From a virus, in the IMG/VR virus record IMGVR_UViG_3300021061_000030, positions 1-42,425 of that record: DNA of 42,425 bases; one strand, 5' to 3'. Of this stretch, positions 2,802 through 42,425 are shown in pieces; positions within the stretch are counted from its first letter, which is position 1, and each line of letters begins with the position of its first letter. The notes under the pieces are model-generated. The model did no database searches, was not told where the DNA came from, and worked only from the letters and a program-made list of their open reading frames with translations. The translations under genes were made by a program, and so were the position numbers.

Positions 2802-3038
2802 ATGGACCTCAAAGGCAGATACGTGACCTTCGTGTGTCGGATCACGGACCCGGAGAAATACGCGGGCGAGAACCCGATGAACACTCACCAATTGGCTGGC
2901 GTTGAAGTCGTCGGGATCTCGGTAGGCGACCTGATGGGCTACAGCGACAAGCTAGAGGAGCTGTGCGGAGGCCAAGAAAACGAGGCCGTGCGGGCGGCGT
3001 TCGAGAAACACTGCCTTCCCGGTCAGCAGCGCATCTAA
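2802..3038 (+). CDS. Hypothetical protein
   Basis: This 78-residue protein starts at ATG 2802, four bases after a GAACGAA motif at 2791-2797, with no Shine-Dalgarno sequence. It is acidic in its second half and predicted to be soluble. No family is recognised. Confidence 0.7.
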   Translation: MDLKGRYVTFVCRITDPEKYAGENPMNTHQLAGVEVVGISVGDLMGYSDKLEELCGGQENEAVRAAFEKHCLPGQQRI

Positions 3039-3049
3039 GAACAACTTCA

Positions 3050-3301
3050 ATGAAGAATAATCCTCCGCTTCACCTGAAGCTCGAACCGTCGCCTGGTGCC
3101 GAGATCGGCGATTGCTACGACCACGCGGCGAAAATCGTCCGCAAGGTCGGGTGCGTCGTGAACTTCGACTTCAACGAGGTCTTCTGCGGCGTCCGGCCGT
3201 GCGACATCCGCGGCAAGGGCCGGCGTGCGCGATTCATCGAGGTGTATCACCGCGAAATGACGAAAAAGGCCGGCTGCAAGATCTGCTACGCCAACCCGTA
3301 G
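3050..3301 (+). CDS. Cysteine-containing hypothetical protein
   Basis: This 83-residue protein starts at ATG 3050 after the variant motif GAACAAC at 3039-3045. It has six cysteines spread across the protein (including FCGVRPCD and GCKICY), so metal binding is possible. The first part is helical and the end basic. The function is not recognised. Confidence 0.7.
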   Translation: MKNNPPLHLKLEPSPGAEIGDCYDHAAKIVRKVGCVVNFDFNEVFCGVRPCDIRGKGRRARFIEVYHREMTKKAGCKICYANP

Positions 3302-3309
3302 GGGAACGA

Positions 3310-3510
3310 ATGACTGCGATACCTCATCATCACGCAGGCGACTTAGCCCGCATCCACGAACTAGAGCGAAAGTTGATGCTCGCCCGGAAGGGCCTACTTT
3401 GGATTCAGGTCCGCGCCGCCTGCGATGCGGGCGAGCCACTAGCCGACAAGATCGTGGCCGTGGCGACCGACCACCTCAACGAGACGGCCGACGCCGCGCT
3501 ACCCAGCTAA
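3310..3510 (+). CDS. Small hypothetical protein, paralogue of the gene at 620
   Basis: This 66-residue protein starts at ATG 3310, whose A is the last base of a GAACGAA motif (3304-3310), so motif and start codon overlap. Its last 45 or so residues are nearly identical to the protein at 620-826; the N-terminus differs and is His-rich. No known family is recognised. The pattern suggests that a conserved C-terminal module was copied behind a different N-terminus. Confidence 0.75.
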   Translation: MTAIPHHHAGDLARIHELERKLMLARKGLLWIQVRAACDAGEPLADKIVAVATDHLNETADAALPS

Positions 3511-3517
3511 GAACGAA
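3415..3517 (+). repeat. 103-bp direct repeat, copy 2
   Basis: This segment matches 731-833 with one mismatch and includes the gene's 3' end, stop codon and the following GAACGAA motif. Upstream of 3415 the similarity between the genes decays to protein level only. Confidence 0.9.
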
Positions 3518-5845: not shown

Positions 5846-6973
5846 GTGATCTCCTACATCTCAGTTTGCAGCGGAATCGAGGCGGCGACTGTGGCGTGGC
5901 ACCCGCTCGGCTGGCGCGCCGCCGCGTTCTCGGAGATCGAGCAATTCCCTGCGGCGGTGCTGGGCGAACACTACCCGAACGTCCCAAACCGGGGCGACAT
6001 GACCAAATTCAAAACATGGCCCGATGAACCAATCGACCTTCTTGTTGGAGGAACCCCCTGCCAGGCGTTCAGCATCGCCGGCCTGCGCAAAGGACTGGAT
6101 GACCCGCGCGGTAATCTCACCCTCGTCTTTCTTGCTCTGGCTCGAAAGTATCGGACCCGCTGGGTGGTGTGGGAGAACGTCCCCGGAGTGTTATCTGATC
6201 GAGGAAATGCGTTCGGCCAATTCCTCTTTGGCTTGGGGCAACTCGGGTATGGGTGGGCCTACCGGGTGCTTGACGCTCAATACTTCGGAGTTCCCCAGCG
6301 ACGCCGTCGCGTCTTCGTTGTCGGATATCTTGGAGACTGGCGACGTGCCGCAGCGGTTCTTTTTGAGCCCGAAAGCCTGCGCGGGGATTCTGCGCCGCGC
6401 CGCGAACCGGGCCAAAGAGTTGCCGGAACGGTTACGCGTGGCGCTCTCGATGGTAGCAGCCCGTGCGGTGGGGACGGCAGAGACTCCTTCCTCGTGACAC
6501 ACGCGCTTCGCGCCGAAGGATTCGACGCGAGCGAAGACGGAACGGGGCGTGGCACGCCGCTGGTGCCGATTGCCTTTTCGGCGAAAGACTATGGTGCCGA
6601 CGCCGGCGAACTGAGTCCGACGCTGCGCGCTGGCGGCCACACCGGCAGTCACGCCAACGGAGGAGTCATGCCGGCCGTTGCCTTTCAGGAGTGCGTGACT
6701 GGCGTCCGAGAATATCCCGAGGCAGGCACGCTGCGCGCCGGCGGCCCTGGGCATGATCCGGTCGGGACGCGGCTGCGTATCGGGATGTCCGTGCGTCGGG
6801 TCACCCCGCGCGAGTGCGAGCGCCTGCAAGGCTTTCCCGACGACTACACCCGCATCATGTATCGCGGAAAACTCGCGGCTGACGGCCCGCGTTACAAGGC
6901 GCTGGGAAACTCCATGGCGGTCCCCGTCATGCGCTGGATCGGCCAGCGCATCGCGATCGCCGACACCCTCTAG
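5846..6973 (+). CDS. DNA (cytosine-5) methyltransferase
   Basis: This 375-residue enzyme transfers a methyl group from SAM to C5 of cytosine. Motif I is SVCSGIEAA (residues 6-14), the catalytic Cys is in GGTPCQAFS (Cys72), ENVPG is at 110-114 and the QRRRRVF motif at 151-157. A target-recognition region spans about 165-320, and motifs IX (RRVTPRECERLQGFP) and X (KALGNSMAVPV) close the protein. The start is GTG 5846, five bases after GAACGAA (5834-5840). No matching restriction endonuclease is adjacent, so self-protection of phage DNA is the likely role. The target sequence cannot be read from the protein. Confidence 0.93.
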   Translation: MISYISVCSGIEAATVAWHPLGWRAAAFSEIEQFPAAVLGEHYPNVPNRGDMTKFKTWPDEPIDLLVGGTPCQAFSIAGLRKGLDDPRGNLTLVFLALARKYRTRWVVWENVPGVLSDRGNAFGQFLFGLGQLGYGWAYRVLDAQYFGVPQRRRRVFVVGYLGDWRRAAAVLFEPESLRGDSAPRREPGQRVAGTVTRGALDGSSPCGGDGRDSFLVTHALRAEGFDASEDGTGRGTPLVPIAFSAKDYGADAGELSPTLRAGGHTGSHANGGVMPAVAFQECVTGVREYPEAGTLRAGGPGHDPVGTRLRIGMSVRRVTPRECERLQGFPDDYTRIMYRGKLAADGPRYKALGNSMAVPVMRWIGQRIAIADTL

Positions 6974-10768: not shown

Positions 10769-10776
10769 ACTTCCCT

Positions 10777-11022
10777 ATGAGCTGGATTGTTTGCGCCATT
10801 GCGGTGTGGGTGCCGGTGGGGATCTACTTCGCCCTCGACATGTGGAAGATGGACGTCGTGTGCGAAGCCACCGGACACTGGCGACGGAGTTGGTACGGCG
10901 TGGTCGCCTTGTTCCTCTGGCGGATCGTGTGGACATTCCCGGTTTGCGTCCTCGTCATTGTGATTGGAGGGCAATCCGTGATTCGGAATTTCCTTCGAAG
11001 GTCGTCTAAGAAGGGGGCATGA
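10777..11022 (+). CDS. Small two-pass membrane protein
   Basis: This 81-residue protein starts at ATG 10777, eight bases after the previous stop. It has two hydrophobic segments (about 2-20 and 42-64) and a basic C-terminus (NFLRRSSKKGA), a layout seen in holins and other small membrane proteins. It overlaps the minus-strand gene ending at 11006 by 17 bases tail to tail. A holin role is possible but unproven. Confidence 0.6.
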   Translation: MSWIVCAIAVWVPVGIYFALDMWKMDVVCEATGHWRRSWYGVVALFLWRIVWTFPVCVLVIVIGGQSVIRNFLRRSSKKGA

Positions 11023-11221
11023 GCCGGCATGGCCAGAACTCGCCGGTAAGCCAGTTTGGCGTCCGATCAACCTCGGCTTCCCCGCTGTAGGGGTTCGCTT
11101 CGCCGGGTTTCCAGAGCCAGCCGTTGCCGCGGTTCCATTCGCAGACAACGGGCGGCGCGGTAGGGCTGTCCCGATACCAGTAGAAGCCGTCCTCGGCGGG
11201 AGGTGTTCGGGTCCAAGTCAC
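11006..11221 (-). CDS. Small Trp-rich hypothetical protein
   Basis: This 71-residue protein begins at GTG 11221, overlapping the stop of the preceding gene (GTGA), and is the last gene of the leftward operon. The GFYWYRDSPTAPPVVCEW...GWLWKPGE pattern, rich in Trp and Tyr, resembles small phage proteins of the DUF551-like type. An upstream ATG at 11257 is possible but would overlap by 40 bases. Function is unknown. Confidence 0.65.
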   Translation of the reverse strand: MTWTRTPPAEDGFYWYRDSPTAPPVVCEWNRGNGWLWKPGEANPYSGEAEVDRTPNWLTGEFWPCRLMPPS

Positions 11222-11394
11222 CGCCTGAGCATCGGATCCTTCTTCTGCCAAGGCCACTCGAAGAGGAGGCGGAGGACACAGCGAACCCGCGGGTCCGAAA
11301 GGGGAATGACCTCCCCGGGCTTGCCCGTGCCGACGAGCTGCGGAACCTCCTTCCAGCAGCCGTCGCGGCGGAGGTGGTAGGGGCCGATTTTCAT
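11218..11394 (-). CDS. Small hypothetical protein
   Basis: This 58-residue frame starts at ATG 11394, overlapping the upstream stop (ATGA), and its stop overlaps the next start (GTGA). These two tight overlaps are strong support for such a short gene. The protein is basic (begins MKIGPYHLRRDGCWKEVP) with no recognised domain. Confidence 0.65.
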   Translation of the reverse strand: MKIGPYHLRRDGCWKEVPQLVGTGKPGEVIPLSDPRVRCVLRLLFEWPWQKKDPMLRR

Positions 11395-11627
11395 GGGGCC
11401 TTACGCTGCATCGCGGCGTCGATCAATTCTAAGGCCGCGATTTCGCGGTGTTCCTTATACTCCGCGTATGCAAGTTCGTGCAGGCGAAAGATTGCATCGT
11501 GCACCTTGGGTGTTAGCAACGTGGCGTTGGGGATGTCCACGGTGAGCAGCGGACTTGAATAGCTCTTCCGCCTGCCATCGTATGCCGTGTGGAAAAAGCC
11601 GTGGTTAACGTGGGCTGTTTGCGCCAT
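11391..11627 (-). CDS. Hypothetical protein
   Basis: This 78-residue protein starts at ATG 11627. The first half is strand-like and the second a charged helix (FRLHELAYAEYKEHREIAALELIDAA). It overlaps the next gene by four bases. The upstream in-frame extension is Arg/Pro-rich and was not used. Confidence 0.65.
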   Translation of the reverse strand: MAQTAHVNHGFFHTAYDGRRKSYSSPLLTVDIPNATLLTPKVHDAIFRLHELAYAEYKEHREIAALELIDAAMQRKAP

Positions 11628-11631
11628 AGAA

Positions 11632-11814
11632 TTAAGGAGAGGTGAACACAACGCCGACCGTGGCCTCACGCATCTCGGCGGCGACGCGTTGAACGGCAGC
11701 GACCGACGCTGGATCGGCCGGCCGCGGTTTGACGCGAATGCGCTTCCACGAGGCACAGCCGGAGAGTGCCAAGGCGATGGCGAGGGCGGGTAACGACAGG
11801 CTTGCGGGTTTCAT
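11632..11814 (-). CDS. Small lipoprotein (possible outer-membrane spanin partner)
   Basis: This 60-residue protein has a lipoprotein signal: hydrophobic stretch at 4-19 and a lipobox LSGC with Cys20, so it would be lipid-anchored. The mature part is only 40 residues, Pro- and Ala-rich, as in Rz1-type spanins. A partner with an N-terminal anchor lies elsewhere (33547-33858), so pairing is speculative. It sits 4 bases upstream of the gene at 11627. Confidence 0.6.
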   Translation of the reverse strand: MKPASLSLPALAIALALSGCASWKRIRVKPRPADPASVAAVQRVAAEMREATVGVVFTSP

Positions 11815-34097: not shown

Positions 34098-34439
34098 CTA
34101 ATCACGGTCGCGGCCTTCGCGCTTCCGACCGCGTCCCGTTCTTGCTCGAACTTCTGCGTAGAGCATGTCGACGATCTCTTTCAACTTCTCCGCGTCGGGC
34201 GCGGAGGGTGGATTCGAGTTAGATCCGTTAAGCCCCTCAGTGGGCACAATCGCCATGTGGCCGACGCGGAGGGCAACCCCCATCGTCACCGCTTTGACGA
34301 AAGAGTTTATCAGATCACGAAGGACTAGTGGCTCGGTACTCCCGATCCTCTGAACTGCGGCGATAAACTCCGCGCGCTGCGCCTTGGTGATTTTGACGCT
34401 GATGCTGTCATCGTAGACCGTGTCGCCTCGGCGTGGCAT
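34098..34439 (-). CDS. Ribbon-helix-helix-like putative regulator
   Basis: This 113-residue protein has an early strand (SISVKI, residues 12-17), a helix (TKAQRAEFIAAVQRI) and a second helix (PLVLRDLINSFVKAV), the RHH layout, followed by a tail with a charged end (RGRKREGRDRD). It reads away from the RHH-like gene at 34525, with the CCTAGT-rich region between them. It may repress itself and its neighbour. Confidence 0.6.
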   Translation of the reverse strand: MPRRGDTVYDDSISVKITKAQRAEFIAAVQRIGSTEPLVLRDLINSFVKAVTMGVALRVGHMAIVPTEGLNGSNSNPPSAPDAEKLKEIVDMLYAEVRARTGRGRKREGRDRD

Positions 34440-34524
34440 TTGCGCATCAGAAAACGCGCGATCCGTATACTAGGGAAACTTTTTTATTGACTACTAAAGA
34501 TTCCTAGTATTCCTAGTGGACCCG
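34440..34524. promoter_or_regulatory. Divergent operator region with ACTAGG/CCTAGT sites
   Basis: The 85 bases between divergent RHH-like genes hold ACTAGG at 34469-34474 and the inverted CCTAGT at 34503-34508 and 34512-34517, the last two being tandem TTCCTAGT copies nine bases apart. TTGACT at 34487-34492 fits a rightward -35 box, with a TATTCC candidate -10 (34509-34514); on the minus strand TAGTAT near 34467-34472 is a candidate -10. Half-sites overlap both. RHH proteins typically bind tandem or inverted sites like these. Confidence 0.6.
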
Positions 34525-34785
34525 ATGAACGACGACTCGGGGTTTACGGTGCCTGTGAGCGCCAAAATTACGCCTAACTCGAAGGGGTTATTGGAGGAGG
34601 CTTACAAGCGGTTCGGGGTGCGGGAAGGGGCGCTTGTTCGGATGGCCGTCGAGGACTACGTCCCCCGCTATCTTGCCAACCACGGCAGGCCCGACGGACA
34701 GGTCATGGAAGTTGTCCGGGAGGCCCAATCCAAGGGCGTCGACGTTGTCGCCACCCTCACCCGCGCCGCGCGCCGGGCGCGGTGA
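34525..34785 (+). CDS. Ribbon-helix-helix-like putative regulator
   Basis: This 86-residue protein starts at ATG 34525 (a GTG at 34516 is possible). It begins with an RHH-like strand (TVPVSAKITP, residues 8-17) and two helices (LEEAYKRFG, EGALVRMAVEDYVPRYLA), then an Arg-rich tail. It reads away from the gene at 34439, with shared CCTAGT half-sites between them, so the pair may form a lysogeny switch. Confidence 0.6.
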   Translation: MNDDSGFTVPVSAKITPNSKGLLEEAYKRFGVREGALVRMAVEDYVPRYLANHGRPDGQVMEVVREAQSKGVDVVATLTRAARRAR

Positions 34786-34805: not shown

Positions 34806-35510
34806 ATGTGCCAATTCAAAAGCGCCATCGTCCTCAAGGACGAGTCAGCCAAAGGCGGTTTCAAGCTCCTCATGTCTCCGTGGACCGAGAGCCATTCCGA
34901 GCTTTGCGTCATCCACAAGCTGAACGACACCGCCAAGGCGCGCCTCTACTTCGCCCGCGTCGAGTTCACGCCCTCGTCCATGGACAAGGCCCACTTGGTC
35001 GACGAATACAAGCTCCGGATCGACGAAGAACGGACGCCCGAGTGGTTCGACGACGACATGAAGGTCGCGGTGACCGACAAGCTCCGCGCCTACATCAAGT
35101 CCATCATCGTCGAAGGCGACGTGCAGTTGCTCATCGGCGGTCAGTTCATCATCGCGCCCGGCGCGAAGGTTGAATCGGCGCATTCGATGGTTATCAACGC
35201 GATTTGTGGCGGCACCGTGAGCGCGATTCGTGGCGGCACCGTGAGCGAGATTTGTGGCGGCACCGTGAGCGCGATTTGTGGCGGCACCGTGAGCGAGATT
35301 TGGGGCGGCACCGTGAGCGCGATTCGTGGCGGCACCGTGAGCGCGATTTGTGGCGGCACCGTGAGCGAGATTTGTGGCGGCACCGTGAGCGCGATTCGTG
35401 GCGGCACCGTGAGCGCGATTTGGAAATATTTCTCGGGACTCATTGGTGCCGTAGGATCGAACGCGAAAATCCTTTCGGATGAACGCGAGAAAAAGGACGC
35501 GGACAAATGA
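34806..35510 (+). CDS. Octapeptide repeat protein
   Basis: This 234-residue protein has an N-terminal domain (1-125, MCQFKSAIVLKDESAKGGFK onward) that resembles phage and bacterial proteins of unknown role that carry tandem GGTV-like repeats. Residues about 131-205 are nine octapeptides of consensus S-A/E-I-C/R/W-G-G-T-V plus a partial tenth. The DNA copies are almost identical. The repeat would form a beta-solenoid-like rod. The C-terminal tail is Lys/Asp-rich. Variation is limited to two codons per repeat. Its function is unknown. Confidence 0.75.
   Translation: MCQFKSAIVLKDESAKGGFKLLMSPWTESHSELCVIHKLNDTAKARLYFARVEFTPSSMDKAHLVDEYKLRIDEERTPEWFDDDMKVAVTDKLRAYIKSIIVEGDVQLLIGGQFIIAPGAKVESAHSMVINAICGGTVSAIRGGTVSEICGGTVSAICGGTVSEIWGGTVSAIRGGTVSAICGGTVSEICGGTVSAIRGGTVSAIWKYFSGLIGAVGSNAKILSDEREKKDADK
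35196..35423 (+). repeat. 24-bp tandem repeat array in the octapeptide gene
   Basis: Nine 24-bp units (35196-35411) and a partial tenth (35412-35423) follow without gaps. The variable codons are GCG or GAG (Ala/Glu) and TGT, CGT or TGG (Cys/Arg/Trp); other positions are constant except for the first codon of unit one. The order of variants (A-C, A-R, E-C, A-C, E-W, A-R, A-C, E-C, A-R, A-W) suggests expansion by unequal duplication. Confidence 0.9.
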
Positions 35511-36581: not shown

Positions 36582-37007
36582 ATGAACGCCGCGCCCACAG
36601 TCGCCCCCGGTCACTACTCCGTCACCACGACGACGCGTGCGCCCGACGACTCCACCCCGCTCCGCGGCTACGACCGGCAATCCGACGCCACCGGCCTATC
36701 CCCTTCCTACCTCAAGGCGATGCACCGCGCCTCCCGCAACACTCCAGAATGCCCCTGGCGCGGCCAGTTCGCCACGCGCCGCGGCATCCTCAAGTGGTGG
36801 GAGAACCACCCGGAGTTTGTTGCGCGCCGGGCGTGGGCTCTGGAGCCGGGGCAAACTTCACCTTGTTCAGATGCGCCGCAAGTTCGCCCGTCTGCTCGCG
36901 CTGGTAAATCCGGTGAACCGTCGGGTTCTTGTGCCCCGCAATCCTCATTGCAAACGACTCGGGCACGCCTGCGCGCCGCGCGCGACTTATGCCTGAAACC
37001 CGCGTAG
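36582..37007 (+). CDS. Excisionase-like protein, antisense to the integrase 3' end
   Basis: This 141-residue frame starts at ATG 36582, two bases after GAACGAA (36573-36579). Residues about 35-85 (LSPSYLKAMHRASRNTPECPWRGQFATRRGILKWWENHPEF, split) resemble a MerR/Xis-type DNA-binding domain. The rest (about 70 residues) is Ser/Arg/Ala-rich and overlaps the integrase C-terminal coding sequence on the other strand (36790-37007). The N-terminal half is probably the working part; the end may be a shadow extension. Confidence 0.55.
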   Translation: MNAAPTVAPGHYSVTTTTRAPDDSTPLRGYDRQSDATGLSPSYLKAMHRASRNTPECPWRGQFATRRGILKWWENHPEFVARRAWALEPGQTSPCSDAPQVRPSARAGKSGEPSGSCAPQSSLQTTRARLRAARDLCLKPA

Positions 37008-37917
37008 AATGAAAGCACGTGTGGCCAATTCCGATCTTCTGGCGCAGCGCCCACCACTCCTTTGCCGCGAGCCTCGGCAGGACGCAGGTGAATGGTGCCT
37101 TGGCCGCCCTGAGCGCACGCAGCCGCGGGACCAAATTCTCGTGAATCGGAATCGCCTGCATCTTGCCTCCCTTGGCGCGCACGGTGAGTTCGCCCCTTTC
37201 GAGATCCACCAGATGCATTGGAATCTGCGTGCTGGAGAGGCGGCACCACGTATGCAGGGCGATTTCAAACGAGGTGGTCATCCATTGCGCCGCAATCGGC
37301 AGATGCGCCTCGCGGCGCGCGCATTCGGCGCGAATCAGCGCAATCTCCTCGTCCGTCAGCTCGGGCTTCTCTTTCGGGGGGTCTCGCCGCAGCCGAAGCC
37401 GCGCGCACGGATTGCGCAGGCAGTAATCGCGCCGCACGGCTTCGTCCATGATGACGCCGAAAATCTTCAACTCGGTGATGGCCGTATTCCGCGAGTACGC
37501 CTTTCCGCAATGGCGGGTATGGCCGAGACGCCACGGGATGTAGTTCATGACGTGCTCGTGGGTGACGGTCGCCGGCACGTGCATGGACTTCTCGACCAGG
37601 TACAGGTTCAGCCACGCCCAGGCGTTCGCGGCCCGCTTGAGACTGAGCGGGCTCGAGCGGTAGCGATCATTGACGTAGCGCGGCACCCAAGCGTTCCAGA
37701 TTTCGCGCTTGGCGGCACCGCGGAACGCGATTGCTGCCTCGCTCTTGGCCGCGGCGAAGGCGTGGGCCTTTCGCTTTCCCGTCGGGTCGTCGACCCGGAA
37801 GGGGGTCGCCTCATGAACGCGTTTCAGGCGGCGCGTGCAGAAGTACGCGACGAAGTAGTGGGGGCGATCATCGCGCGTGTAGACGTTGGCGTCGCGGGGC
37901 ACGGCAACAACCGGCAA
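36790..37917 (-). CDS. int: Tyrosine recombinase / phage integrase
   Basis: This 375-residue integrase carries the catalytic set: Arg226 in TWCRLSS, Lys252 in AKGGK, His303-x-x-Arg306 in FHSTRVS, His329 in GHKN and Tyr338 in HRIYQRE. The N-terminal two thirds give an arm-type and core-binding layout. The start is probably TTG 37917 (or an upstream CTG); no ATG fits. It sits next to a tRNA-end attachment site, and its C-terminal coding sequence overlaps the xis-like gene antisense. It catalyses integration and excision. Confidence 0.9.
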   Translation of the reverse strand: MPVVAVPRDANVYTRDDRPHYFVAYFCTRRLKRVHEATPFRVDDPTGKRKAHAFAAAKSEAAIAFRGAAKREIWNAWVPRYVNDRYRSSPLSLKRAANAWAWLNLYLVEKSMHVPATVTHEHVMNYIPWRLGHTRHCGKAYSRNTAITELKIFGVIMDEAVRRDYCLRNPCARLRLRRDPPKEKPELTDEEIALIRAECARREAHLPIAAQWMTTSFEIALHTWCRLSSTQIPMHLVDLERGELTVRAKGGKMQAIPIHENLVPRLRALRAAKAPFTCVLPRLAAKEWWALRQKIGIGHTCFHSTRVSGISRARRAGVPESFAMRIAGHKNPTVHRIYQREQTGELAAHLNKVKFAPAPEPTPGAQQTPGGSPTT

Positions 37918-38584: not shown

Positions 38585-38790
38585 TCGGCCAACTACCCGA
38601 CCCGACCTTTTCCGACCAATTGGCCGCGGTCCGCCGCGAGCGCCACGAAGACCTAATGCGCGCCCTTTGGGCCATCGGGGCCTCCCCTTTTCAGACTCGG
38701 TTTTTGGCGGGAGGGCCAATGACCGCACCGACTACGAACACGACTGCAACCAAGCTGAATCCGCACCATGACCAAGACTGCAACCGTTGA
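38581..38790 (+). CDS. Hypothetical protein
   Basis: This 69-residue protein starts at ATG 38581. A charged helical stretch (QLAAVRRERHEDLMRALWAIG) is followed by a Thr-rich tail. Its end overlaps the ERF gene by 23 bases. The function is unknown. Confidence 0.6.
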   Translation: MIGQLPDPTFSDQLAAVRRERHEDLMRALWAIGASPFQTRFLAGGPMTAPTTNTTATKLNPHHDQDCNR

Positions 38791-39526
38791 CACCGAGCTT
38801 CCGTTGGCCACCGCGCCGGCCGCACAACTCGCCCCCGCGCCCACGCGCTCCGGCCCTTCCGTCGGTGAAATGCTCGGCGCCGTCATCGAAAAGGGCGTAA
38901 CCCAAGAGAACGTCGCCGCCATCGAGAAGCTGGTGGGGCTCTACGAGCGGATGGAGGAAAAGGCTGCTGAGCGCCAGTTCAATGCCGCCTTCGTCGCGCT
39001 CCAGGCCGATCTTCCCGTCATCGTCGCTTCCACGGTCATACCGAATCGCGGCAAGTACGAGCGGTACGAGGATGTCATGCGCGTGGTTGCGCCCCTGCTC
39101 GTGAAGCACGGCTTCACGGTATCCTTCACGATGGGCTTCCGCGAGGGTCGCGTGCTCGAGACATGCCACCTGCGCCACGTTGGCGGTCACTCGCAGTCCA
39201 ATTCCTTCGCCGTCCGTACCGGCCGCGCCGACTCCGAGACCCAAGCCGACTGCAAGGCGGCGACGACCGCCAAGCGGAATGCCCTGCTCAACGCGCTCAA
39301 CATCGTCATCCGGCAGGACGCCTACCAAGACGAAGACGGCGACGCGTCACTCGACGGCGCTTTCATTGCGCCGGACAAGGCGCTGTATCTGCGCGAACTG
39401 GTGAGGGAGACGAAGGCGGACGAGGCGAAGTTCCTGCGGTACGCTGGCGCCGACAAGTATGAGGAGATTCCTGCGTCCCGCTACGACGTGCTCGTGGCAG
39501 AGCTGCACCGGAGGAAGCGGTCGTGA
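38768..39526 (+). CDS. erf: ERF-family single-strand annealing protein
   Basis: This 252-residue protein matches the ERF recombinase family: a helical LVGLYERMEEKAAERQFNAAF lead, PVIVASTVIPNRGKYERYEDVMRVVAPLLVKHGFTVSF, and later RTGRADSETQADCKAATTAKRNALLNALNI. ERF proteins anneal homologous single strands, circularising and recombining phage DNA, working with an exonuclease as seen in the next gene. The first 30 residues are Pro/Ala-rich and probably flexible. Confidence 0.8.
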   Translation: MTKTATVDTELPLATAPAAQLAPAPTRSGPSVGEMLGAVIEKGVTQENVAAIEKLVGLYERMEEKAAERQFNAAFVALQADLPVIVASTVIPNRGKYERYEDVMRVVAPLLVKHGFTVSFTMGFREGRVLETCHLRHVGGHSQSNSFAVRTGRADSETQADCKAATTAKRNALLNALNIVIRQDAYQDEDGDASLDGAFIAPDKALYLRELVRETKADEAKFLRYAGADKYEEIPASRYDVLVAELHRRKRS

Positions 39527-40227
39527 AGATCCACGATCACAAGCAGGGCTCTTCCGCTTGGCTAATGGCCCGCGCCGGCATCTTCACGGCGTCCGAGCTC
39601 GACAACCTCATCACGCCCGAGTGGAAGCCGCGCACCGGCCAGACCCCCGACACGTACATTTACCGCAAGGTAGCCGAACATCTCTGCTGCTTCCCATTGG
39701 ACACCGGCTCCTCGTGGGCGATGGAGCAGGGCGTTATCCTCGAGACCGAGGCACTCCCGTGGTTCGAGTTCTCCCAAGGCGTCACGGTGCGGCGCGTCGG
39801 CTTCATCACGAACGACGATGGCACGTTTGGCTGCTCGCCGGACGGGCTGATCGACGGCGACGAAGATAGCGATGATTTCGGCGGCATCGAGATCAAGTGC
39901 CCACAGCCGGCGACCCACGTCCGCTACCTCGACAACGGCGAGCTGCCCAAGGAGTACGCCGCCCAAGTCCACGGCTCCATGTACGTCACCGGCCGCTCAT
40001 GGTGGAAGTTCCTCTCCTACTCGCGCCAGCTCCCGCCGCTGCTCCTCACGATCCACCGCGACGAGCGCATCATCGCCGCAATTCGCGCCGCTCTTTCCTC
40101 CGCACAGCAAACCTACAACTCCCGCCTCTCGAAACTGCAATCGCTCAAATCCGCCCACGAAGCCCCGCTCAAGGCCGCATACGAGGCCAAAATCCGCGAG
40201 TGGGAACTGACGGGCAAGATCCCCTAA
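39523..40227 (+). CDS. YqaJ/lambda-exonuclease-like recombinase exonuclease
   Basis: This 234-residue protein starts at GTG 39523, overlapping the ERF gene (GTGA). It has the PD-(D/E)XK core: EQGVILETEA (Glu74), GCSPDGLID (Asp107) and GIEIKCP (Glu123, Lys125), with a following QVHGSMYVT helix (Gln148). It would resect 5' strands to give the ERF protein single strands to anneal. The C-terminus is a long helical tail. Confidence 0.88.
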   Translation: MKIHDHKQGSSAWLMARAGIFTASELDNLITPEWKPRTGQTPDTYIYRKVAEHLCCFPLDTGSSWAMEQGVILETEALPWFEFSQGVTVRRVGFITNDDGTFGCSPDGLIDGDEDSDDFGGIEIKCPQPATHVRYLDNGELPKEYAAQVHGSMYVTGRSWWKFLSYSRQLPPLLLTIHRDERIIAAIRAALSSAQQTYNSRLSKLQSLKSAHEAPLKAAYEAKIREWELTGKIP

Positions 40228-41089: not shown

Positions 41090-42425
41090 CGACCACCCAC
41101 CACACTCTCGGCGCGGCCGCGCTTGGGCGCACATTGCCCAATTCGATTGAGGCCGAGGAGAACTTGCTCTCGTGCTGCCTGCTCGACGGGGCCGACGTCA
41201 TTTCGCGCTGCCTGGAGGCCCGCATCTCCACGGAGTCATTTTACGAGCAGAAGCACGGCACCATTTTCGAGAAGATGGTTGAGCTCTACAACCGCCAGGC
41301 ACCTATCGAGGTGTCGGTGGTCGCGGAGGAGCTGAAGACCGAGCGGCGCCTCGACGCTATCGGGGGGTACTCGTTCCTGACCAAGGTGTCTGCTCGCATC
41401 CCGACAACCGCACAAGCCTCGTACTTCATCGAGAAGGTGCGCGAACAAGCCCTCTTGCGCGAGATCATACGCACGGCGACCAAGGCCGTTGAGGGTTGTT
41501 ACAACTTCTCGGGCGGCATCGACGAGTTTGTTGACGACATCGAGCGCCAGATGTTCGCCGTAACCCAGACCCGCATCTCGGACCGAATGCAGCGCGCCGC
41601 GCAGATTGTCCCAGACGCGCTCGCTGTGATCGACAGCATGGTTCAACGCAAGGGCGAGAAGACCGGCGTGTGCTCCGGGTTCACGGATCTGGACCAACTC
41701 ACGTGGGGATTCCAGCGCGCCGACCTCATCATCCTTGCCGCGCGCCCCAGCATGGGAAAGACGGCCTTGGCCCTCAATATCGCCGAGAACATCTCGGCGC
41801 CGACCAAGGGTGCAGGCTCGCCGGTTCTCGTCTTCTCGCTCGAGATGACGGCTACGCAACTCGTCCAGCGGATGCTGTGTAGCCGGAGCCGCGTGAACAT
41901 GAAGCTGCTGCGCGACGGATTCCTGAGCAGGGGCGGCGACGAACAACTGCGCCTCGTAAATGCTGCCGACGAAATGAAGCGCGCGCCGCTTTTCATTGAC
42001 GACTCCAGCACCATCACGGTCTCGACCATCCGCGCCCGCGCCCGCCGCGTGCATGCGCGCCATCCGCTGGCGTTCATCGTCGTTGATTACCTTCAGCTAA
42101 TGGCACCGTCCAAGTCTGACGTGCCGCGCGAGCAGCAGGTGGCCGAAGCCTCCCGCGGCCTCAAGGCACTTGCGAAGGAGCTCAACGTCCCGGTCATGGT
42201 GTTGTCGCAGCTCAATCGCGCCGCCGACAAGGAGAGTCGGCCGCCGCGCCTCTCCGATCTGCGCGAGTCCGGCGCCATCGAGCAGGACGCCGACGTCGTG
42301 CTCCTCATGGCGCGTCCCGCAGCCGCAGGAGATCAGTTCCAGGTAGCGACCGACACGACCGAACTGATCGTCGCCAAGCAGCGCAACGGGCCCGTTGGAA
42401 CGATTAAGCTGACGTTCCTCCGCGA
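41086..42425 (+). CDS. dnaB: Replicative DNA helicase DnaB, N-terminal to end of window
   Basis: This frame runs off the right end and continues at 1-183, giving 456 residues. The N-terminal domain (about 18-120) has the DnaB PNSIEAEENLLSC start; TGVCSGFTDLDQLTWGFQ leads into Walker A AARPSMGKT (217-225), and Walker B is FIVVDYLQLM (329-338), with RLSDLRESGAIEQDADV before the closure. It unwinds the fork as a hexamer. The start ATG 41086 overlaps the preceding stop. Confidence 0.95.
   Translation, partial: MTTTHHTLGAAALGRTLPNSIEAEENLLSCCLLDGADVISRCLEARISTESFYEQKHGTIFEKMVELYNRQAPIEVSVVAEELKTERRLDAIGGYSFLTKVSARIPTTAQASYFIEKVREQALLREIIRTATKAVEGCYNFSGGIDEFVDDIERQMFAVTQTRISDRMQRAAQIVPDALAVIDSMVQRKGEKTGVCSGFTDLDQLTWGFQRADLIILAARPSMGKTALALNIAENISAPTKGAGSPVLVFSLEMTATQLVQRMLCSRSRVNMKLLRDGFLSRGGDEQLRLVNAADEMKRAPLFIDDSSTITVSTIRARARRVHARHPLAFIVVDYLQLMAPSKSDVPREQQVAEASRGLKALAKELNVPVMVLSQLNRAADKESRPPRLSDLRESGAIEQDADVVLLMARPAAAGDQFQVATDTTELIVAKQRNGPVGTIKLTFLR
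42274..42425. repeat. Terminal direct repeat, right copy (contig closure)
   Basis: This is the second copy of the 1-152 repeat, differing at 42298. When the copies are merged the genome is a circle of about 42,273 bp. Confidence 0.9.

Follow-up and report, generated by a model that had tools for sequence, protein, structure and literature searches.

An octapeptide-array protein of a probably temperate phage: a conserved N-terminal domain joined to a predicted solenoid, a candidate recognition surface diversified by recombination

Hypervariable repeats in phage proteins, such as VR2 and Tweety gp54, were noted in 2004-2007 and since then have stayed unexplained in the literature searched. Bbp36 (VR2) of phage BPP-1 contains an array of 24-bp units encoding the octapeptide GTATAG[YR/ES/NY]. 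Two codons of the unit vary, and the copy number is labile: the arrays of four Bordetella phage isolates consist of 14, 20, 20 and 7 units, and their flanks are nearly identical. The gene occupies the early region, ahead of exonuclease and ssDNA-annealing genes, and was reported to be non-essential in PMC2884959, which cites Liu 2004. Tetra/octapeptide arrays (AA[W/G/K..]S) with invariant third codon positions are present in Tweety gp54, Che8 gp57 and PMC gp51 (48, 26 and 15 copies, respectively), and selection for variation in such arrays was proposed earlier by the authors of that description (PMC2884959). In gp59 of AlpineSix, a Tweety-related phage, seven nonsynonymous and no synonymous differences were counted within the array, the gene being located near the excise and antirepressor genes. 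As for diversity-generating retroelements (DGRs), proteins carrying DUF6273 and a variable region at the C-terminus are established targets, as in the Faecalibacterium prophages Roos, Pioen, Lelie and CP11 (PMC11792537), and phage DGR targets lying outside structural genes have been linked to defence/counter-defence islands (Quimbyviridae, PMC8008677).

The DNA analyzed here, referred to as the window, is the whole IMG/VR virus record IMGVR_UViG_3300021061_000030 (42,425 bp). Its ends carry a 152-bp direct terminal repeat, 99% identical (positions 1-152 and 42274-42425), so it probably represents an entire phage genome, and the integrase gene indicates that the phage is probably temperate. The features of the array locus and its surroundings are as follows.

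34516..34785, + strand: 89-aa gene, candidate ribbon-helix-helix regulator (VapB-like match with E=0.02, below the cut-off)
34806..35510, + strand: array-protein gene, 234 aa (ORF list and homologues in viral contigs)
34806..35162, + strand: N-terminal 'MCxFKS' domain, about 119 aa, non-repetitive (alignments, AlphaFold2)
35193..35425, + strand: octapeptide array, nine GGTV-S-[A/E]-I-[C/R/W] units of 24 bp and a tenth strand
35426..35507, + strand: C-terminal cap KYFSGLIGAVGSNAKILSDEREKKDADK, common to the homologous loci L001, L004 and L027
35507..35863, + strand: 118-aa gene with no assigned function, its start overlapping the stop of the array gene (ATGA)
36790..37917, - strand: tyrosine recombinase (phage integrase; PF00589, E=3.9e-7)
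38768..39526, + strand: ERF single-strand annealing recombinase, an early landmark (PF04404, E=5e-8)
39523..40227, + strand: YqaJ-type exonuclease/recombinase, an early landmark (PF09588, E=5.4e-21)

Tandem Repeats Finder detected the array at 35198-35422 with a period of 24, 9.4 copies, 93% matches and a score of 401; the second-highest score elsewhere in the window was 59, which argues that the array did not arise by chance. The nine near-identical octapeptide units reported in a preliminary description of this DNA were reproduced by the open reading frame, its translation and the repeat search alike. The regular units differ at only three nucleotides, all of them nonsynonymous, and are otherwise identical: the second codon (position X1) is GCG or GAG and the fourth (X2) is TGT, CGT or TGG. 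Confinement of the variation to these two codons, as described previously, holds for all units but the first, a junction unit that begins with I-N and not with V-S. Besides the nine GGTV units there is a tenth strand segment, SAIW, which continues into the C-terminal cap. The net charge of the array is zero. Neither an RVT_1 (RT) gene nor a second copy of the array or a template repeat was found in the window, and the protein was therefore rejected as a DGR target. Profile matches of the protein to HTH, tape-measure and zinc-finger families were dismissed, being weak and falling within the repeats.

The likeness to Bbp36 thus includes the 24-bp octapeptide unit, the two variable codons, the labile copy number and the early position ahead of recombination genes. 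The N-terminal domain of Bbp36 is, in contrast, DUF7666 (PF24703, E=1.7e-10), to which the window protein showed no match, and the constant residues of the repeats differ too. Likewise, the proteins of the Tweety gp54 group share with the window protein the array organization, while their N- and C-terminal regions are unrelated to it and the repeat composition is different. The window protein would act like Bbp36/VR2 and Tweety gp54, belonging by its N-terminal domain to neither.

The N-terminal domain had been described as having no assigned function, and this was borne out: searches against Pfam, PHROG, NCBIfam and PDB sequences revealed no family match, and the whole protein matched none of the PADLOC anti-phage defence profiles. 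Despite the high confidence of its AlphaFold2 model (pLDDT 91.5), Foldseek revealed no PDB fold matching the domain at E<=0.001, so neither fold nor function can be transferred to it; a single BFVD structure matching the window protein belongs to an uncharacterised protein. The search in other genomes advised in the preliminary description was productive, as viral loci encoding the domain numbered 10 by direct search and 63 after profile search. Plasmids yielded no match, and bacterial genomes contributed one locus in a metagenome-assembled genome (L015). We name this family, undescribed in the databases searched, the MCxFKS domain, since nearly all of its members start with M-C-x-[FL]-K-S. 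Over about 100 residues it displays the motifs M-C-x-F-K-S, S/D-S-H, V-E-x-x-P and D-[E/Q]-x-x-x-P-x-W, all present in the window protein, and in the alignments C2, K5, S6, H30, E53, P56, D73, P78 and W80 are near-invariant. The near-invariant C2, H30, E53 and D73 provide a lead, and only that, towards an N-terminal Cys nucleophile; with such conserved Cys, His, Glu and Asp residues the domain might be an enzyme and the array merely its handle. In L052 (6001-6774, +), the sole member seen with Cys2 changed (to Gly), His30 is changed as well (to Tyr), and this joint loss suggests that the two residues may act together.

Downstream of the MCxFKS domain the tail of the protein varies. The majority of the members carry arrays of 8- or 9-residue units that share one grammar: the unit opens with [T/S/K]-[V/I], in some cases followed by a small residue, and continues with X1 (usually A/E, K/E, V/E or R/E), a core residue (A, V, I or M), X2 (C, R, W, Y, L or F), often X3 (D/G or E/G), and a turn of small residues. 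Elsewhere in the family the tail consists of pentapeptide repeats (L039; PF00805, E=6.5e-27), of LRR-like repeats (L064), or of a domain with a hypervariable end. The last type is represented by L078-L081, whose otherwise near-identical proteins diverge in the last ~30 residues. In this clade a template repeat (TR) lies 460-560 bp downstream of the variable-tailed gene, 170 of the 176 core mismatches (12 loci) fall at TR adenines, and the TR is followed by an RVT_1 gene (E=1e-13); the tail locus is a textbook diversity-generating retroelement. The tail of L040 resembles DUF6273 with E=6.6e-4, below the cut-off of that family. A tail resembling that of the Faecalibacterium prophage targets is found here on MCxFKS proteins with adjacent TR and RT, whereas the diversity of the window protein resides in an array with neither RT nor template.

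The N-terminal domains of the array-type and DGR-type proteins are homologous, as judged from a BLASTP match between the window protein and L078 (E=3e-8) and from a comparison of the two clade profiles (hhalign 98.9%, E=4e-17). The window protein thus has its N-terminal domain in common with DGR targets, not being one itself. On the tree, whose resolution is limited by its 90 columns, the DGR-type sequences form one clade (SH-aLRT 99) nested within the clade of 9-aa arrays (98). The replacement thus appears to be a single event, and interchangeability of arrays with DGR targets is supported by this one clade. As a DGR target fills the array slot in it, the job of the slot would be variable ligand recognition.

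AlphaFold2 modelling of the window protein with 35 homologues resulted in a structure with one strand per octapeptide, pLDDT of 92.7 and pTM of 0.87, although the program is sometimes over-confident for perfect repeats. The repeats are accordingly predicted to form a beta-solenoid of stacked strands, as the preliminary description had supposed. In the strand T-V-S-X1-I-X2 the two variable residues are two positions apart and hence on the same face, with Ile on the opposite one; the E, R and W residues of the variable face indicate that it is presumably the outer face of the solenoid. Pentapeptide repeat proteins (PF00805) are likewise solenoids of short repeats, and L039 carries true pentapeptides on an MCxFKS domain; the window protein differs from them in its 8-residue period and in lacking the A(D/N)LXX motif, and it did not match PF00805 at the Pfam cut-off. 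DNA mimicry of the pentapeptide type (Qnr/MfpA) is not suggested, because the arrays are near neutral and not strongly acidic.

Unit number across the family ranges from 1 to about 20; among the relatives of the window there is one unit in L004, two in L002, six in L021, 10 in L001, 13 in L027 and ~19 in L003 and L035. L053 and L054 are near-identical phages, with downstream flanks 99.97% identical over 2,832 bp, and their arrays differ by exactly six 27-bp units; unit numbers taken from short-read metagenome assemblies may, however, be in error. Many contigs of the family (L022, L023, L028, L069 and L076) end inside the array; assemblies evidently break there and unit numbers are under-reported. 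The expectation that copy number varies between phages thus agrees with the data. Every length change seen comprises whole units of 24 or 27 bp and keeps the frame, and phase variation was rejected for this reason. In the clade of the window the constant codons are fixed within each phage and differ between phages (Ser is AGC or TCA), the X1 codons differ as well (GCG/GAG versus GCA/GAA), and nevertheless both the A/E and the C/R/W polymorphisms coexist in each of the window, L001, L027 and L031. The arrays therefore undergo concerted evolution with maintained polymorphism. When every codon variant was scored once in each array, with related arrays being partly non-independent, we found 157 nonsynonymous and 14 synonymous within-array differences in 36 arrays; with one array per unit type (23 types) the counts were 120 and 11, against an expected nonsynonymous share of 72% (p=2e-8, ratio ~4.3).

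Considering these data, we favour, with somewhat better than even confidence, the reading that the window encodes an early, non-virion phage protein in which a conserved N-terminal module bears a ligand-binding solenoid diversified by recombination. The C-terminal beta-solenoid would be a fast-diversifying recognition surface on the MCxFKS module, each octapeptide supplying one strand in which X1 (A/E) and X2 (C/R/W) flank the constant core Ile. Recombination within the array (slippage, unequal crossing-over, gene conversion) would alter the unit number in frame, homogenise the constant codons and reshuffle a small stock of unit variants, while selection would favour arrays differing at X1 and X2 (in other families also at X3). 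A DUF6273-like, DGR-diversified domain has taken the place of the array in one clade. A diversifying recognition surface on a conserved module, produced by repeat recombination and not by a mutagenic RT, is the simplest account of four findings: the replacement by a DGR target, the excess of nonsynonymous differences, the retention of the residue alphabets and the lability of copy number. The tunable binding surface imagined in the preliminary description is strengthened by both the nonsynonymous excess and the occurrence of a DGR-mutated domain at the site of the array in homologues. The solenoid of the window protein would bind a ligand, and the protein would probably help to take over the host or to counter its defences, or else act in superinfection control.

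The same data bear on the supposition that the array serves passively as a spacer or scaffold, expanding by slippage and accumulating variants by neutral drift. Such a spacer would be compatible with the very labile copy number, with the random order of the units (see below) and with the non-essentiality of Bbp36 and Tweety gp54, reported or presumed in PMC2884959. Neutral drift, however, predicts about 28% synonymous differences, and about 8% were seen; moreover, the A/E and C/R/W alphabets persist while adjacent constant codons have been replaced in every unit, and in one clade the slot is occupied by a DGR target. We regard this explanation as already disfavoured and unlikely.

It may also be supposed that variation is structural, i.e., that stacks of identical charged or bulky residues are unfavourable and that solubility and register of the solenoid depend on mixed rungs. 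Different charges (K/E, A/E, D/G) and stacking residues (R/W/Y/C) are indeed frequently combined in the variable sets, and the arrays are near neutral overall. This requirement predicts a deficit of identical neighbours, whereas 321 identical neighbours were observed against 322.8 expected (Stouffer z = 0.15, 69 array columns pooled). Accordingly, the order of X2 residues in the window (C R C C W R C C R W), described previously as an alternation, is indistinguishable from random, and a charge-alternation ladder was rejected, as units show no neighbour preference. Furthermore, long identical runs do occur, such as ten consecutive YR units in BPP-1 Bbp36, and the DGR replacement would be left unexplained. 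A purely structural cause is hence quite improbable in our estimation.

The C-terminus of T4 gp5 contains octapeptide repeats. Its beta-helix (PF22178) has the same periodicity as the window array, and the window protein might by analogy be a tail spike or needle of the virion with a trimeric beta-helix. The repeats of L008 match PF22178 Gp5_trimer_C (E=1.3e-6, below the cut-off) and a baseplate PHROG, and phage DGR targets are frequently tail proteins. On the other hand, the window protein itself did not match PF22178, its matches to tail PHROGs are weak and driven by the repeats, and the monomer alone is predicted as a confident solenoid. Whereas T4 gp5 is a virion spike, the array gene lies outside the structural block, in the early/lysogeny region: it is the second gene of a rightward operon, the 89-aa gene ending 20 bp upstream of it and the ATGA overlap placing the 118-aa gene in the same operon, and genes for ERF, YqaJ and DnaB follow downstream. 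In L053 and L060 the array genes are similarly located between lysogeny and replication genes, as in Dulem virus 35. A virion component seems doubtful, in view of these facts. Position in an early operon is no proof of early expression or of a counter-defence role. Finally, a function of the repeats as DNA (a recombination site or iterons), with the protein being incidental, would fit the near-perfect 24-bp direct repeats, but is already disfavoured and highly improbable, as the repeat DNA is wholly different between homologues that keep the protein grammar, nearly all differences are nonsynonymous, and the array has no further copies in the genome.

Returning to the recognition-surface reading, the MCxFKS family ties hypervariable arrays to DGR targets via a common N-terminal domain and displays a measurable excess of protein-level diversity. 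Tentatively, and with the balance of our judgement slightly against it, this may be extended to a general RT-independent diversification by tandem-array recombination in early phage proteins, filling the slot of DGRs. In this extension the MCxFKS domain would be an effector module bearing either a solenoid, its outer residues reshuffled by repeat recombination under diversifying selection, or a DGR-mutated domain, and would thereby keep up with a variable intracellular target (host defence or competing phages). The repeats themselves look like a second, reverse-transcriptase-free route to a changing binding surface. The question raised here is testable: does repeat recombination diversify an intracellular binding protein in parallel to mutagenic reverse transcription, and against which target?

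Several further observations concern repeat proteins in related loci. In addition to an MCxFKS array protein, the L060 phage encodes a DUF7666-like protein (10769-11779, +) with five-residue repeats NTG[D/N][W/R/G/L/C], variable at set positions. In L019 (4818-5732, +) the order is reversed, an N-terminal octapeptide array being followed by a C-terminal DUF7666 (E=2.2e-6). The microvirus of L013, bajarodmic virus 919 (5.4 kb), encodes a degenerate octapeptide-repeat protein; its gene (2815-3369, +) is located between those of the replication initiator and the DNA pilot protein.

In the window itself, two small ribbon-helix-helix-like genes diverge upstream of the array gene (34098-34439, -, and 34516-34785, +); neither had a profile match above the cut-off, and the pair is possibly a regulatory switch. 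A 186-bp direct repeat, 88% identical (648-833 and 3332-3517), includes the terminal parts of a pair of short paralogous ORFs (..RKLxLARKGLxWIQVRAACDAGEPLADKIVAVATDHLNETADAALPS). A C5 cytosine DNA methylase, a possible anti-restriction gene, is encoded at 5846-6970 (+; PF00145, E=2.3e-50).
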